The position numbers and the translations under genes were made by a program. Under the pieces are notes generated by a model. It was not told the DNA's origin and ran no database searches. It saw nothing but the letters and a program-made list of their open reading frames with translations. This document shows positions 26,188-39,119 of a stretch of 39,119 bases of DNA, piece after piece (the first letter of the stretch is position 1; each line of letters starts with the position of its first letter). The DNA is from a virus, in the IMG/VR virus record IMGVR_UViG_3300013122_000003, positions 1 through 39,119 of that record. One strand, written 5' to 3'.

Positions 26188-26589
26188 ATGGATCGTGGGG
26201 GTGTTAATATGACCGCGAAGGAAACGGCTATAGGCAGGCGAATCAAAGAGTGCCGCCAAAAGATGAATTTGACGCAGGAGCATCTTGCGGAAATACTCCA
26301 GAATAAATACGGCTTGTCAACCGATCGGCCGACTATATCAAAGTGGGAAACAGGATTCCAAGAACCGACAATCACACCCTTAAAATATATGGCTGAAGTA
26401 TTTGGTGTATCTCTCGATTATTTGAATGGAAAAGACGACTTTGTTCAAAGCGAGCAAAAGGTTGAACATAATAAATTAGGCGATGACCATCAATGGTTAT
26501 TTGACAAAATTGCCAAAGCCGATTCGGCTAAGGCGAAGAAAATGAGACAGCTGATGGAGTTAGTTGATGGAGAGGATAAAAACAGTTGA
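26188..26589 (+). CDS. CI-like lysogeny repressor (HTH only)
   Basis: A 133-residue repressor with an N-terminal XRE HTH (I-G-R-R-I-K-E-C-R-Q-K-M-N-L-T-Q-E-H-L-A, then R-P-T-I-S-K-W-E-T-G) and G-V-S-L-D-Y-L-N-G, followed by a short acidic helix. It has no S24 self-cleavage domain. Inactivation therefore probably depends on the ImmA-like protease encoded next, as in ICEBs1 and related phages. The ATG at 26188 has AAAGGAG; an ATG at 26209 with GGGGGTG is an alternative. Confidence 0.85.
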   Translation: MDRGGVNMTAKETAIGRRIKECRQKMNLTQEHLAEILQNKYGLSTDRPTISKWETGFQEPTITPLKYMAEVFGVSLDYLNGKDDFVQSEQKVEHNKLGDDHQWLFDKIAKADSAKAKKMRQLMELVDGEDKNS

Positions 26590-26884
26590 TGGCATTGTAG
26601 CGCTTCTTCAAGATAAAAACATAAGAGTCGAAAAAGCTGATCTGTTTGGTTATTGTAAAGCCACGGTAAAAAAACAGGGGGAAGGGTACTTGATTCTTGT
26701 CGAAGAAACGTTATCATTCGATGCTATGCTGAAAGCACTTCAACACGAACTATGCCACATTATATTAGGCCATCTAGATGACGACACAAAGACCGAAAGT
26801 CAGATGGAAAAGGAAGTTACATCTGTACTGCCCGCCTTACGGCACGAACTAAAGCGAGTAGGCCAACCGGCCACGCAATATTAG
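26567..26884 (+). CDS. ImmA/IrrE-family metallopeptidase
   Basis: A short (105-residue) zinc protease with H-E-L-C-H at residues 60-64, the HExxH motif, followed by I-I-L-G-H-L. ImmA-type proteins cleave the partner repressor to start induction. The gene overlaps the repressor by 23 nt, the usual coupling for this pair. TTG at 26564 lies directly before the ATG and could also start translation. It is shorter than classical ImmA, but the active-site region is intact. Confidence 0.85.
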   Translation: MERIKTVDGIVALLQDKNIRVEKADLFGYCKATVKKQGEGYLILVEETLSFDAMLKALQHELCHIILGHLDDDTKTESQMEKEVTSVLPALRHELKRVGQPATQY

Positions 26885-26901: not shown

Positions 26902-27258
26902 ATGGAAAATCAAGAGGTTCTTCAGGCTAATCAGGCGGTGTACACACCTGATCGAACGGATTCGTACTTTGACGGTGGTCTTCTGCAGCTTATCGGCTGG
27001 AGAATACTCGGATCACTTGTCACGATGATTACACTCGGTCTATGCTTCCCCTGGGCGTATTGCATGATCTACCGCTGGGAAGCGAGACACACCGTTATCA
27101 ACGGCCGGCGGTTGATTTTCGATGGTACCGCGGTTCAGCTTTTTGGGAACTGGATCAAGTGGCTGCTACTGACTCTTATTACGATCGGCATCTACGGTTT
27201 TTGGTTAAGTATTAAGCTGAAAAAATGGCAAGTTAAACATACACACTTCGCCGCATAA
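26902..27258 (+). CDS. DUF898-like membrane protein
   Basis: A 118-residue protein with two hydrophobic segments (about residues 33-57 and 82-102). The patterns Y-F-D-G-G-L-L-Q-L-I-G-W, C-F-P-W-A-Y-C-M-I-Y-R-W-E and F-D-G-T-A-V-Q-L-F-G-N-W-I match the DUF898 family. The ATG follows GGAGGACAAC. Lying in the lysogeny operon between ImmA and integrase, it should be made in the prophage. Superinfection exclusion is a plausible role but is inference. Confidence 0.75.
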   Translation: MENQEVLQANQAVYTPDRTDSYFDGGLLQLIGWRILGSLVTMITLGLCFPWAYCMIYRWEARHTVINGRRLIFDGTAVQLFGNWIKWLLLTLITIGIYGFWLSIKLKKWQVKHTHFAA

Positions 27259-27367: not shown

Positions 27368-28501
27368 ATGCCGAAAAGAGGTAAACCGCGTAGCAGAGCA
27401 AACGGCGAAGGTACAATATATCAGAACGCCAACGAAACATGGACAGCGCAATATAAAGCGCCGCCGGGCAGCAAACCAGCCAGGCCGAGTATGACGTTCA
27501 CCACGCAGCGCAAGGCGAAACAGTGGCTTACTAGCCAGCTGCGTGACCTTGATACTGGCGATTATGTCGAGCTGTCCATCCAGTCGCTTGGCAGTTGGTG
27601 GGACGTATGGGTGGAAACATACAAGCGCCGGACGGTTACAGAAGACACGCTGGCATCGTATAAGTATGCTAAAGCCAGATTGTCTGCGGCTATCCTAAAA
27701 ACGCAGTTGGCTGACCTGAAAACAGAAAATATTCAAGCCGAGTGGAACCGCCTGAGTGATCTCGATCTTACCAGACGAACGGTTGAACTGACTCGCACAC
27801 CGCTGGTCATGTGCCTGGACAAGGCTGTAGACTTGAAGAAGCTACGAAGCAACCCGGCTAAGGCTACGACGCTGCCGGACGACGACAGCACGCCGTCTGT
27901 ACCGCTTACGATCGACGAGGAGCGTGACCTGGTGGCATACTGTCTCTCACTACCACGTACACTTGCAAACGGCCGAATCGACAAGCATGACGTTAGGCGG
28001 CAGGTGTATAAGGATGCGTTGCTTTTCATCCTGCGGACTGGCGTGCGCCGGGCCGAGTGCCTTAATCTGACATGGGATGACTGGACAGATCTGGTCATTC
28101 ATGTCCGTGGCACCAAGACGGACGCTTCTGATCGCATGATACCGCTGACTGAGGATGTCCTTGCGATGCTTCGCCGCCGCCGACAGGCTACCGCTACCGG
28201 GTATGTTTTCGTTACGACGAACGGCCATGTTCTCAGCGGGCGAAACCTACTTCGGCACCTGGTCGACCTAAATGGCCATAAAATACACGACCTAAGGCAC
28301 ACCTACTGCACCCGCGCTGCTCAGGCCGGAATTAACCCCAAGGTGCTGCAGACGATCACCGGACACAGCAAGATCGAAACCCTGCTGAAGATATACACGC
28401 ATGTATCAGATCAGGACCGCGCTGACGCTGCTGCAAAGATTTTTGCCTACTGCAAATTTACTGCAAATCCCGCCCCAAACGCGGATGCCGTTTCAAAATG
28501 A
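27368..28501 (+). CDS. int: tyrosine-type site-specific integrase
   Basis: A 377-residue integrase. It has an N-terminal arm-binding segment (about 1-60, basic, E-G-T-I-Y-Q-N then W-T-A-Q-Y), a core-binding domain (about 70-175), and a catalytic domain with R227 in T-G-V-R-R-A-E, H307-x-x-R310-H in H-D-L-R-H-T-Y, G-H at 332-333 and nucleophile Y343 in K-I-Y-T-H-V. The ATG follows GGAGGCGAGCGT. The tRNA-derived attP core is 38 bp downstream, so int will lie at one prophage end. Confidence 0.92.
   Translation: MPKRGKPRSRANGEGTIYQNANETWTAQYKAPPGSKPARPSMTFTTQRKAKQWLTSQLRDLDTGDYVELSIQSLGSWWDVWVETYKRRTVTEDTLASYKYAKARLSAAILKTQLADLKTENIQAEWNRLSDLDLTRRTVELTRTPLVMCLDKAVDLKKLRSNPAKATTLPDDDSTPSVPLTIDEERDLVAYCLSLPRTLANGRIDKHDVRRQVYKDALLFILRTGVRRAECLNLTWDDWTDLVIHVRGTKTDASDRMIPLTEDVLAMLRRRRQATATGYVFVTTNGHVLSGRNLLRHLVDLNGHKIHDLRHTYCTRAAQAGINPKVLQTITGHSKIETLLKIYTHVSDQDRADAAAKIFAYCKFTANPAPNADAVSK
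28449..28468 (+). other. left arm-type integrase sites (putative)
   Basis: ACTGCAAAT occurs at 28449-28457 and 28460-28468, 11 bp apart, inside the 3' end of int. Related pairs lie on the other side of the core. Paired direct repeats on both sides of a tRNA core are the usual arm-site layout for tyrosine integrases. Confidence 0.5.
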
Positions 28502-28538: not shown

Positions 28539-28588
28539 TGGTGGGTAGTATAGGACTCGAACCTACGACCCCTTGCATGTCAAGCAAA
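28539..28588 (-). other. attP core: 3' part of a tRNA-Val(GAC) gene
   Basis: On the minus strand these 50 bp read as the 3' half of a tRNA. There is an anticodon arm with loop TTGACAT (anticodon GAC, valine), a variable region GGGTC, a T arm with loop TTCGAGT between GTAGG and CCTAT, the acceptor strand ACTACCC, and A-CCA. The D arm and 5' acceptor are absent, so this is not a working gene. It is the standard identity segment by which a phage restores the tRNA it integrates into. Confidence 0.9.
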
Positions 28589-28605
28589 CGTATAATTAAT
28601 ATTAT

Positions 28606-28729: not shown

Positions 28730-28918
28730 ATGACTGAGAAAATGATCAAGACAATCCTGAAGGCCATAACCAGCAGCGGCCGGTATGATGACGGCGTGCT
28801 GCGGATCGAACGCGACCCTGTAACCAGGATGATCGACGTCTACCTGGGCGGGTACTTCACAACCAGCTGCAACACCAAGACGGAGCTGGCCGACTGGCTG
28901 CGTGACCTGCCTGATTGA
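28730..28918 (+). CDS. small hypothetical protein next to attP
   Basis: A 62-residue protein starting at the ATG after TTGGAGG. It has a helix (K-M-I-K-T-I-L-K-A-I) and a beta pair (G-V-L-R-I-E-R-D-P, M-I-D-V-Y-L-G-G-Y-F). I do not recognise it. Its stop codon lies in the -35 element of the SOS promoter of the next gene. It belongs to the plus-strand accessory strip between attP and the lysis genes. Confidence 0.62.
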   Translation: MTEKMIKTILKAITSSGRYDDGVLRIERDPVTRMIDVYLGGYFTTSCNTKTELADWLRDLPD

Positions 28919-28942
28919 CAATCCGAACAATCGTTCTATAAT
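28915..28942 (+). promoter_or_regulatory. consensus promoter with LexA (SOS) box
   Basis: TTGACA (28915-28920), 16-bp spacer, TATAAT (28937-28942): both hexamers are perfect. The spacer contains CGAAC-AATC-GTTC (28924-28936), a close match to the Gram-positive LexA/DinR operator (CGAAC-N4-GTTC). Bound LexA would cover the space between -35 and -10. Confidence 0.82.
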
Positions 28943-28948
28943 GTAGCC

Positions 28949-29200
28949 ATGAAGCGGATAATTGTAAAAGTATTAGTGGACTTCAGCCCTGACGGCGAAA
29001 TGACGCCGGTCCGGATCACCTGGCCAGATGGCCGGGTCTTCCCCATTGACAAGGTACTGGATGTACGCCAGGCGGCTGACATCGCGTGCGGAGGGAACGG
29101 CCTGCGGTACCTGTGCCGGATAGCCGGCCGTGAGGTTCCGTTGTGGTACGGGTATCTTCCGGAGATCAAGCGAGATGGTTGGTGGATGAACGGGAAATAG
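28949..29200 (+). CDS. SOS-regulated, apparently leaderless small protein
   Basis: An 83-residue protein (M-K-R-I-I-V-K-V-L-V-D-F, D-G-R-V-F-P-I-D-K-V-L-D-V-R-Q-A, then L-R-Y-L-C-R-I-A-G-R). The ATG starts 6 nt after the -10 element, at the expected transcription start. There is no ribosome site, so the mRNA should be leaderless. From memory, similar small proteins occur beside dinB-type genes in Bacillota; I could not check this. The W-P-D-G-R-V-F and G-G-N-G-L-R-Y blocks look like a compact beta fold. DNA damage is the likely inducer. Confidence 0.75.
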   Translation: MKRIIVKVLVDFSPDGEMTPVRITWPDGRVFPIDKVLDVRQAADIACGGNGLRYLCRIAGREVPLWYGYLPEIKRDGWWMNGK

Positions 29201-29381
29201 TGCAAGATTGGCAACGCGCACTTGCACGCCACAATACAGTAATATGCTCTAAGTTGTTGCACGTATTGTTAAGCAATACTACGTGCAAGTTGGGAAAAAT
29301 TTCTCTATATTTCTTGCATTTTTCTCTTGAAATACGTACCGGGTGTGGTATAGTAAGGGTGCAAGCCATATTGGTTTGCAC
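29200..29381 (+). promoter_or_regulatory. GTGCAA inverted-repeat cluster around the NYN gene promoter
   Basis: Three inverted pairs of the GTGCAA half-site occur: 29200-29206/29221-29227, 29257-29262/29283-29288 and 29359-29365/29376-29381, with a near half-site CTTGCAT at 29313-29319. The promoter TTGAAA (29327-29332), 16-bp spacer, TATAGT (29349-29354) lies inside. The third pair begins at the expected start point. This looks like an operator array for a dimeric regulator. Confidence 0.6.
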
Positions 29382-29391
29382 AGATGTGAAT

Positions 29392-29423
29392 GGGATAACA
29401 TGACCCTTGTGGCGTGTTATCCC
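29392..29423 (+). other. leader hairpin of the NYN gene
   Basis: A perfect 9-bp inverted repeat, GGGATAACA (29392-29400) and TGTTATCCC (29415-29423), forms a hairpin in the mRNA leader about 22 nt before the start codon, followed by TTTAGATTTA. It may be an attenuator, an RNA-binding site or a further operator. Confidence 0.6.
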
Positions 29424-29444
29424 TTTAGATTTATGGAGGACTTC

Positions 29445-30044
29445 ATGCTGCGCGGAATGGTTTTCATAGATCACATGAATTTTGAAATCGCCGTAAATGA
29501 TCTATATCGACGACAAGGCCTTTTTGGACCAAAGCTTGACTATTCAGTATTACCTCAACAGGTAGCCAAACTGATGCCCTGCGTTGAACTAGTAAAAACC
29601 TTTTTATTTGTACCCAAGCCTGATGATTTTTTAATGCGAAGTCCATCACTTAAGCAAACATATGAGTGGGCTGTGAGCTTGAAAAACATGCCCTTTTTTG
29701 ACGTTATTGAGGGCTCCTATTTATCTAGACCAATGGATGGTAGAGTAAAAGACCTCGCAGATAAAACTTCGTATTATAAGGTCGAGAAAGGCACTGACAT
29801 CAATATGGCTGCACATGCGTTATCTAAGGCATATTACAACGCTTATGATGTAGCCTTTTTCTTAAGCGCGGACTCCGATTATATTAGCATCTATTCCATT
29901 CTGAAGAACATTGGTAAACTGTCTGTGGTTGTAGCAGTAGAAGGACAGTTTATTGATCGTATAAAACCGCATGTTGATAGTTTTTATCATATAGATCAAA
30001 ATTTTCTCGAACTATGCAGGCGACAAATTCCAATAAAGCCGTAG
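29445..30044 (+). CDS. NYN-domain (PIN-like) ribonuclease-type protein
   Basis: A 199-residue LabA/DUF88-like NYN protein. The first acidic motif lies in M-V-F-I-D-H-M-N-F-E (D9, N12). E-K-G-T-D-I-N-M-A-A-H-A-L is the central Asp motif, and F-F-L-S-A-D-S-D-Y the third acidic cluster, as in PIN-like RNases. The ATG at 29445 follows GGAGG; an upstream in-frame extension lacks a ribosome site. The gene is AT-rich compared with the phage backbone and has its own promoter, operator cluster and terminator, so it is probably moron cargo. Abortive infection or other defence is a plausible but unproven role. Confidence 0.82.
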   Translation: MLRGMVFIDHMNFEIAVNDLYRRQGLFGPKLDYSVLPQQVAKLMPCVELVKTFLFVPKPDDFLMRSPSLKQTYEWAVSLKNMPFFDVIEGSYLSRPMDGRVKDLADKTSYYKVEKGTDINMAAHALSKAYYNAYDVAFFLSADSDYISIYSILKNIGKLSVVVAVEGQFIDRIKPHVDSFYHIDQNFLELCRRQIPIKP

Positions 30045-37688: not shown

Positions 37689-39119
37689 TTAACCCGTTTC
37701 CACCGCAGGTCGGTTCGCTTGCCGGCTATTTCTGTTGATTTTTCTTGTGATCGTATCAACTAACTCGCCGCTATCAAGGTAAATGTTTTCCGTAAGATAA
37801 ATATCCCCGCTGCCGGTCCCGCCAGCAGCAGAGATTTTTGATGCCAGTTGGTCTATCCATCCGGTGTTTCTTTCAAGCGGCATGACCGCTTCTTTGCCTG
37901 CCTCACCGACCATTGCCAGTGTCGGTTGATCAACAACAGCACCAGCCGCCATTTGTGGGATAGTTGATAGCGGCCTTGTGTATGATTGTCCACCGTATGC
38001 GTACGTCTTCGGCTTGGATTTACCCGTGATATCGTAGTACCAGTCTGGCAGCGAGAAGTTGAAGAGTTTAGCTATTCCCTCCGCAGCGCTTCTCATCAGA
38101 TTGATTATTCCGTTACCTATTGAAGCAAAGAAATTGTATATCCCGCTCCCCAGTGACATCATACCGTTCCAACTGTCCGCTCCAAGTTGCATTACTTGCT
38201 TTCCCAGATTAGGAAGAGCGACAGAAAACCTTCGGAAAATCTCAGCGGCTAAAACATATACCCCTGTAATCGGATTCTGAAGCAAATACAACGCCATTTG
38301 AAATCCGTTCATTTTCTGCACAGCAGGGTCTGTCCAATTGGTAAGCATCTGCTTCGCACGATCCAATGCTCCGAAGAAGTCACCTTTGAAAATACTGTCG
38401 ACCAATCCGGTAACTGTTTCAATTGTTTTTCCCCACGCAGCAAACTTTACGCCCGCATTTTCAGCGGAAAAACCGAGATAAAACTCGTTGTCCTCCGCCC
38501 ACGTTGTTAAGCCATCTAGCCCCTTTTGTAGACTATCCACAATCCCAAAAACATTAGTAAAGGCGCCGCCCAGGCTTGATATAGCACTGCTTATACCGTT
38601 ATTCCAGATGCTGGATGCGTAGGTTTTAAGGCTATCAAGAATATTCGAAATCGGTACTGTTATTTCCTCGAATTTGTCCCTTAGAACATTTGCATTATCA
38701 GCGGCTTTTTTTGTTGAAGTTAATGCGGACGTCGTATTTTGAGCTGCACCAGATGATCCATTCGAGCGGCTCGATGATAGAATATTCAACTGGTCGAAAC
38801 TGGCCAGTGATCCCTTGGCTGCTTTTCCGGCCGCATTTGTCCGCTCTGCTAAATCAGACATGCTGTTGGACGCGTTTTCTGCATCAAGAGATATAGTGGA
38901 TACCGATTGAGAACCGAAAAGCTCAGCGGTTATTTCTGCAAAAGCGTTGCCCATATTAACAAGACCCGCCATAACCGCGTTAATTCCACGCAGGATCGGC
39001 GTGAACATGTTGATCAGTCCCTGACCGAAGCTGGCCTTGAAGCTGTCCCACTGGTTCGCCAGCATCCGCGTCTGGTTTGCCCATGATCCGGATGTCCGGG
39101 CAAAGTCACCCTGGGCGTC
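37689..39119 (-). CDS. tail tape measure protein, C-terminal part (continues from base 1)
   Basis: The remainder of the tape-measure gene. The frame is open from 39119 to the TAA at 37689, in phase with bases 1-744 when the 123-bp overlap is merged. Helical segments with hydrophobic patches (G-I-I-N-L-M-R-S-A-A-E-G-I-A-K-L-F) and Gly-rich loops continue. The C-terminus has A-G-A-V-V-D-Q-P-T-L-A-M-V-G-E-A-G-K-E-A-V-M-P-L-E, the well-known ending of Gram-positive siphophage tape measures. The whole protein has about 683 residues. Confidence 0.9.
   Translation of the reverse strand, partial: DAQGDFARTSGSWANQTRMLANQWDSFKASFGQGLINMFTPILRGINAVMAGLVNMGNAFAEITAELFGSQSVSTISLDAENASNSMSDLAERTNAAGKAAKGSLASFDQLNILSSSRSNGSSGAAQNTTSALTSTKKAADNANVLRDKFEEITVPISNILDSLKTYASSIWNNGISSAISSLGGAFTNVFGIVDSLQKGLDGLTTWAEDNEFYLGFSAENAGVKFAAWGKTIETVTGLVDSIFKGDFFGALDRAKQMLTNWTDPAVQKMNGFQMALYLLQNPITGVYVLAAEIFRRFSVALPNLGKQVMQLGADSWNGMMSLGSGIYNFFASIGNGIINLMRSAAEGIAKLFNFSLPDWYYDITGKSKPKTYAYGGQSYTRPLSTIPQMAAGAVVDQPTLAMVGEAGKEAVMPLERNTGWIDQLASKISAAGGTGSGDIYLTENIYLDSGELVDTITRKINRNSRQANRPAVETG
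38997..39119. repeat. second copy of the circular-closure repeat
   Basis: This is the exact copy of bases 1-123 and should be counted once. It holds codons of the tape-measure gene only, with no sign of a cos or pac site. Confidence 0.93.

Follow-up and report, generated by a model that had tools for sequence, protein, structure and literature searches.

A LexA-boxed prophage gene with a predicted leaderless mRNA probably encodes a distant stand-alone relative of ImuB-C

Introduction

What does a small phage gene do when it stands beside a presumed attachment site, carries a LexA-type box inside its promoter and seems to begin its mRNA with its own start codon? This is the question raised by an 83-codon gene of IMG/VR virus record IMGVR_UViG_3300013122_000003, in which the window, as the term is used here, is the whole stretch of 39,119 nucleotides that was analysed. 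The original prediction described the gene as SOS-controlled, leaderless and a link between host SOS and the phage separate from ImmA-based induction, and it gave the function of the product as unknown. We consider it probable that the phage carries an orphan gene of the stand-alone ImuB-C type, repressed by LexA in the prophage and read from a leaderless mRNA, and that the product of this gene aids a Y-family polymerase of the host in trans.

Results

Promoter, SOS box and start codon

The control region and the gene were read as follows.

28915..28920, plus strand: -35 hexamer TTGACA, whose TGA is the stop codon of a 62-residue open reading frame
28924..28936, plus strand: LexA-type SOS box CGAACAATCGTTC, within the promoter spacer and abutting the -10 hexamer; the motif recurs in the control regions of cellular relatives
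28937..28942, plus strand: -10 hexamer TATAAT
28949, plus strand: predicted first transcribed base, the A of the ATG, 7 nt past the last -10 base, with C at -1
28949..29200, plus strand: gene of the 83-residue protein, a putative member of the ImuB-C/DUF6504 superfamily, without a Shine-Dalgarno (SD) sequence

A perfect TTGACA/16 bp/TATAAT promoter with a LexA-type box in its spacer had been predicted, and both are present (promoter at 28915-28942, box at 28924-28936). This promoter is the sole 12/12 match among 22 promoter-like sites between 25 and 33 kb, and 300 Markov simulations of the window gave an expectation of 0.013 per whole window for an exact TTGACA-N16-18-TATAAT and of 0.0 for the promoter combined either with the box or with an ATG 5-8 nt downstream. 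Taken alone, the GAAC-N4-GTTC box is weak evidence, since the motif is found twice in the 39 kb against a chance mean of 0.47 and 7 of 100 shuffles reach 2; it is the placement inside a perfect promoter that counts. The box, which overlaps the promoter and has a motif of the Gram-positive type, keeps the GAAC/GTTC core in full and differs from CGAACATATGTTCG at four positions. LexA binds SP-beta sites at 3.9-12 nM, and the core-perfect box of the window is similar to these (PMC8270828).

The ATG begins 6 nt past the -10 hexamer, and standard numbering places +1 on its A (28949), with a C before it. Every other one of the 33 likely gene starts in the window has an SD match of at least 3 nt in the 20 nt upstream, and this ATG has none, which bears out the claim of an ATG at the expected transcription start with no ribosome site. 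Folding of the first 60 nt of the mRNA showed nothing unusual (z -0.9). That the mRNA is not leaderless, with the gene read together with the 62-residue frame from an upstream transcript or from an SD-free start a few bases upstream and the perfect promoter only secondary, is in our judgement unlikely. The 62-residue frame has a good SD and terminates 30 nt upstream, and a weak promoter-like site is located at 28577-28605, but the ATG would lack an SD on any transcript, the 12/12 promoter sets +1 on it, and direct reading from the stop at 28916-28918 down to 28949 found no other in-frame start codon. Promoter geometry and the absent SD make leaderlessness a good prediction, apparently specific to this copy. 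An exact-match scan of viral contigs for the box, TATAAT and an ATG at 5-8 nt returned 17 stretches, only 2 of which open reading frames of at least 60 residues (70 and 64 residues), neither recognised by eye as a relative of the 83-residue protein; as far as exact matches go, the arrangement is therefore not a widespread viral pattern.

Phage genome around the gene

The phage is temperate. Its record ends share an exact 123-bp direct repeat (1-123 and 38997-39119), and so the genome is most likely a complete circle of about 39.0 kb. The neighbourhood of the gene contains the following features.

26209..26589, plus strand: CI-like repressor, helix-turn-helix only
26567..26884, plus strand: ImmA-like metallopeptidase with an HELCH motif; PF06114 (Peptidase_M78) matches at E 0.0014, below the curated cut-off
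27368..28501, plus strand: tyrosine integrase
28539..28584, minus strand: 3' half of tRNA-Val(GAC), presumed att core, adjoining the integrase gene
28730..28918, plus strand: 62-residue open reading frame with GGAGG upstream (good SD), terminating in the -35 hexamer of the SOS promoter
29445-30044, plus strand: NYN-domain gene

Along the plus strand the order is CI-like repressor, ImmA-like gene, DUF898 gene, integrase, tRNA-Val 3' half (minus strand), 62-residue frame, 83-codon gene and NYN-domain gene, and in an integrated prophage the last three would come to lie at the end opposite the integrase. The DUF898-domain gene (26902-27258), between the ImmA-like gene and the integrase, encodes a small membrane protein. 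The ImmA-like assignment is a reasonable one from the HELCH motif and the sub-threshold Peptidase_M78 match. A self-cleaving domain was not found in the CI-like repressor, where helix-turn-helix was the sole domain detected, in agreement with the claim that the repressor lacks a RecA-cleavable domain. The position of the gene beside attP is supported by the tRNA-Val(GAC) half next to the integrase, but no host junction was found, and the tRNA-Val core is absent, allowing up to 2 mismatches, from the 398 genomes searched in the phylum to which the Oscillospiraceae relative described below belongs. Searches of viral contigs by integrase, lysin or exact tRNA core gave no sister phages, and none of the phage records contains a relative of the 62-residue frame at E up to 1.

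Upstream of the NYN-domain gene are two inverted repeats (29257-29288 and 29389-29426), the second of which is followed by a short T-rich stretch and resembles an attenuator, and a promoter-like TTGAAA-16-TATAGT with TG (29327-29354). The phage genome has no Y-family polymerase (PF00817, E up to 10), so its 83-codon gene is an orphan copy.

The 83-residue protein and its probable link to ImuB-C

The AF2 model of the protein is all-beta and confident over nearly the whole length (pLDDT 91). Among aligned relatives W78 is invariant or nearly so and core residues are kept, and the protein shows the size and build of ImuB-C (about 80 residues, mainly beta, a conserved C-terminal Trp), while its C-terminus deviates from the family in missing YLFxE..RWFVE. 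Searched alone against Pfam, NCBIfam and PHROGs, the protein gave no family match, PF20114 included, and neither sequence nor fold found a significant match in the PDB; its sole significant viral fold match is an unnamed siphovirus protein. ImuB-C has been modelled as a beta-barrel without PDB neighbours (PMC12926913), and the absent fold match would be in line with that literature, though not proof. Membership in the YolD family was rejected, as nine family members gave no YolD match (E <= 1) and the model starts with a strand at residue 2, with no N-terminal arm.

The protein is probably a distant stand-alone homologue of ImuB-C, in a superfamily of accessory domains of the SOS mutasome (ImuB-C/DUF6504), to judge by profile searches in both directions, a paralogue that bridges the two families and the gene neighbourhoods. 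The DUF6504 link was made through Actinomycetota members, after a PF20114 search in six genomes of the 83-residue family had given sub-threshold matches only. With a profile of 76 family members, DUF6504 proteins were the 18 best of 894 open reading frames from their loci; the reverse DUF6504 profile returned members of the 83-residue family as the 10 best of 6,936; and hhalign of the two profiles gave P 8e-6 and a probability of 83%. One locus encodes a tandem second ImuB-C-type paralogue (L043:1108-1446) that matches both the 83-residue family and Pfam DUF6504.

DUF6504 genes adjoin DnaE-type polymerase genes in 5 of 8 Actinomycetota loci tested, and among the control genomes DUF6504 (PF20114) was detected in Caulobacter only, which has ImuB. 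From these two observations we infer that DUF6504 is the ImuB-C domain, although no database says so. The neighbourhood pattern agrees with published ImuB-C genes, which are neighbours of DnaE-type polymerase genes (PMC12926913). The superfamily has been described as made up of mainly beta members that have a conserved C-terminal Trp, occur either as small stand-alone proteins or as the C-terminus of ImuB, and show links to DinB, LexA, DnaE2 and DUF955 peptidases (PMC3765255), and as coupled with Y-family polymerases of Clostridia (PMC6511836). In the literature on the family we found no measurement of ImuB-C biochemical activity (PMC3765255, PMC6511836, PMC12926913).

Relatives and their control regions

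Searches with tblastn and profiles identified relatives in an Oscillospiraceae MAG (L003), in Olsenella (L004) and in human-gut phages, and the profile finds the family in 64 of the 391 genomes searched from the class Clostridia and in 52 of the 149 from the class Coriobacteriia. These proteins are 30-49% identical to that of the window, and their start positions align closely, those with 39-49% identity beginning at nearly the same residue. The 60 cellular loci compared are the best-scoring ones, mostly with about 1.5 kb on each side and partly related to one another. A Y-family (translesion) polymerase gene stands directly upstream on the same strand in 32 of them and nearby in another arrangement in 7 more. 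The view of the product as having no known function is superseded by this family link to translesion polymerases, although the window copy is not itself next to one. In the Oscillospiraceae locus a Y-family polymerase gene (IMS domains), preceded by the box CGAACATTTGTTC, shares 4 nt at its end with the gene of the relative.

A GAAC-N4-GTTC box stands in the control region in half of the cellular loci (30/60), and these regions have 33 boxes in all, whereas the density in the other 198 kb of the loci, which contain 2, would give 0.23. Given how the loci were chosen and that some are related, a Poisson value for this excess is not a formal P. With boxes in half of the control regions, the predicted SOS control of the gene is strongly supported by sequence comparison. 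Stand-alone copies of Coriobacteriia (L004, L046, L048, L049, L056) resemble the window copy in having a box of their own that abuts a -10-like hexamer (GTTCTATACT and the like). Their leaders are some 20-70 nt long, mostly with an SD-like match, and nearly all boxed polymerase operons compared also have leaders, most of them with an SD-like match. Besides the window copy, apparently none of the boxed stand-alone relatives examined has an mRNA that begins with the start codon. All 10 genomes with stand-alone copies that were tested encode Y-family polymerases, mostly elsewhere in the genome, and action of the family in trans with a polymerase is therefore plausible.

Among 18 viral loci the window copy is the only boxed one (0/17 in the others). 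In gut Heliusvirales-type loci (L005, L006, L007, L009) a Y-family polymerase gene is divergent from the ImuB-C relative, and in some loci of this type a repressor or an annotated ImmA-like metalloprotease is near the relative.

Discussion

The proposed working of the gene can be set out as a short series of steps. In a lysogen, host LexA on the spacer box would block RNA polymerase, and DNA damage would activate RecA, lead to LexA cleavage and allow the consensus promoter to fire. The resulting mRNA would begin at the AUG and be translated as a leaderless message, and its product, a partner of the small beta-barrel type, would work in trans with a host Y-family polymerase, together with RecA or damaged DNA. 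This may help lesions to be bypassed, or mutations to arise, in host and phage DNA. A bolder version, in which a leaderless LexA-repressed phage mRNA delivers an orphan ImuB-C-type subunit that commandeers the host Y-family polymerase during SOS, and leaderless initiation sustains translation under damage or antibiotics, is offered tentatively and appears doubtful to us.

The closest known systems are the stand-alone ImuB-C proteins, namely GSU0042 of Geobacter and the Clostridial ImuB-C with YqjH-subgroup polymerases (PMC3765255, PMC6511836, PMC12926913). The window protein shares with them a length of about 80 residues, an all-beta build, a conserved C-terminal Trp and no close solved fold, and its relatives share LexA boxes and linkage to SOS and Y-family polymerases. 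Unlike them, the window copy is phage-borne, has no polymerase in its genome, has its own promoter and apparently no leader, and has an altered C-terminus, while its family is tied to Pfam DUF6504 through family profiles only. The yolD gene of SP-beta is likewise prophage-borne and SOS-boxed and encodes a small Y-family polymerase partner, with the same GAAC-N4-GTTC box type, bound by LexA in SP-beta; however, YolD combines an SH3-like barrel with an N-terminal arm, and yolD is typically in an operon with its polymerase gene (PMC8270828, PMC6511836). A precedent for a phage that supplies an accessory subunit to a host translesion polymerase, as proposed here, is P1 HumD, mentioned in PMC4713147 (through its reference 78) as a phage-encoded UmuD'-like protein that facilitates SOS mutagenesis. 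HumD differs in belonging to the UmuD' family, unrelated to the 83-residue protein, in its Gram-negative host and in a function that, going by that mention, was shown experimentally (PMC4713147).

The orphan state of the window copy and its divergent C-terminus could also point to an inhibitor or decoy, which would bind the host polymerase or RecA and benefit the phage by damping the host's SOS mutagenesis or replication arrest. We regard this as improbable, as the model is confident over nearly its whole length with core residues kept, and no sign of inhibition was seen.

For a small SOS-boxed phage gene the main alternative is a LexA-controlled antirepressor, which would bind the non-cleavable CI-like repressor or stimulate ImmA and so let SOS induce the prophage. 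Tum of 186, AntC of N15 and GfoA/GftA of Gifsy are small LexA-regulated phage genes of this kind outside the immunity region, in phages whose repressor is not self-cleaving (PMC3121763), and the CI-like repressor here has no recognisable self-cleaving domain. Heliusvirales phages have a relative close to repressor and metalloprotease genes, and ImuB-C has been reported beside DUF955 peptidases (PMC3765255). However, no homology or other sequence link was seen between the 83-residue protein and any antirepressor, most of its relatives are chromosomal and many of them polymerase-linked, and the ImmA-like protease already gives an induction route, which makes an antirepressor quite improbable. 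The claim that host SOS is tied to the phage separately from ImmA would hold for expression of this one gene; a direct role in acting on the repressor or in induction has no support beyond precedent. Lastly, that promoter and box arose by chance around a passive remnant is extremely improbable. A single GAAC-N4-GTTC site in 39 kb would be unremarkable, but promoter, box and start codon are jointly not expected at random, and every second cellular locus of the family has the box.

Few parts of bacterial mutasomes are as poorly understood as the stand-alone ImuB-C proteins, and their Clostridia/Coriobacteriia branch is recognised by none of the profile libraries searched (Pfam, NCBIfam, PHROG). 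A copy that has a separate SOS switch and lies in a phage without a Y-family polymerase would offer a compact system for probing action in trans on a host polymerase, and the 83-codon gene would be a clean test case for a leaderless mRNA induced by DNA damage.
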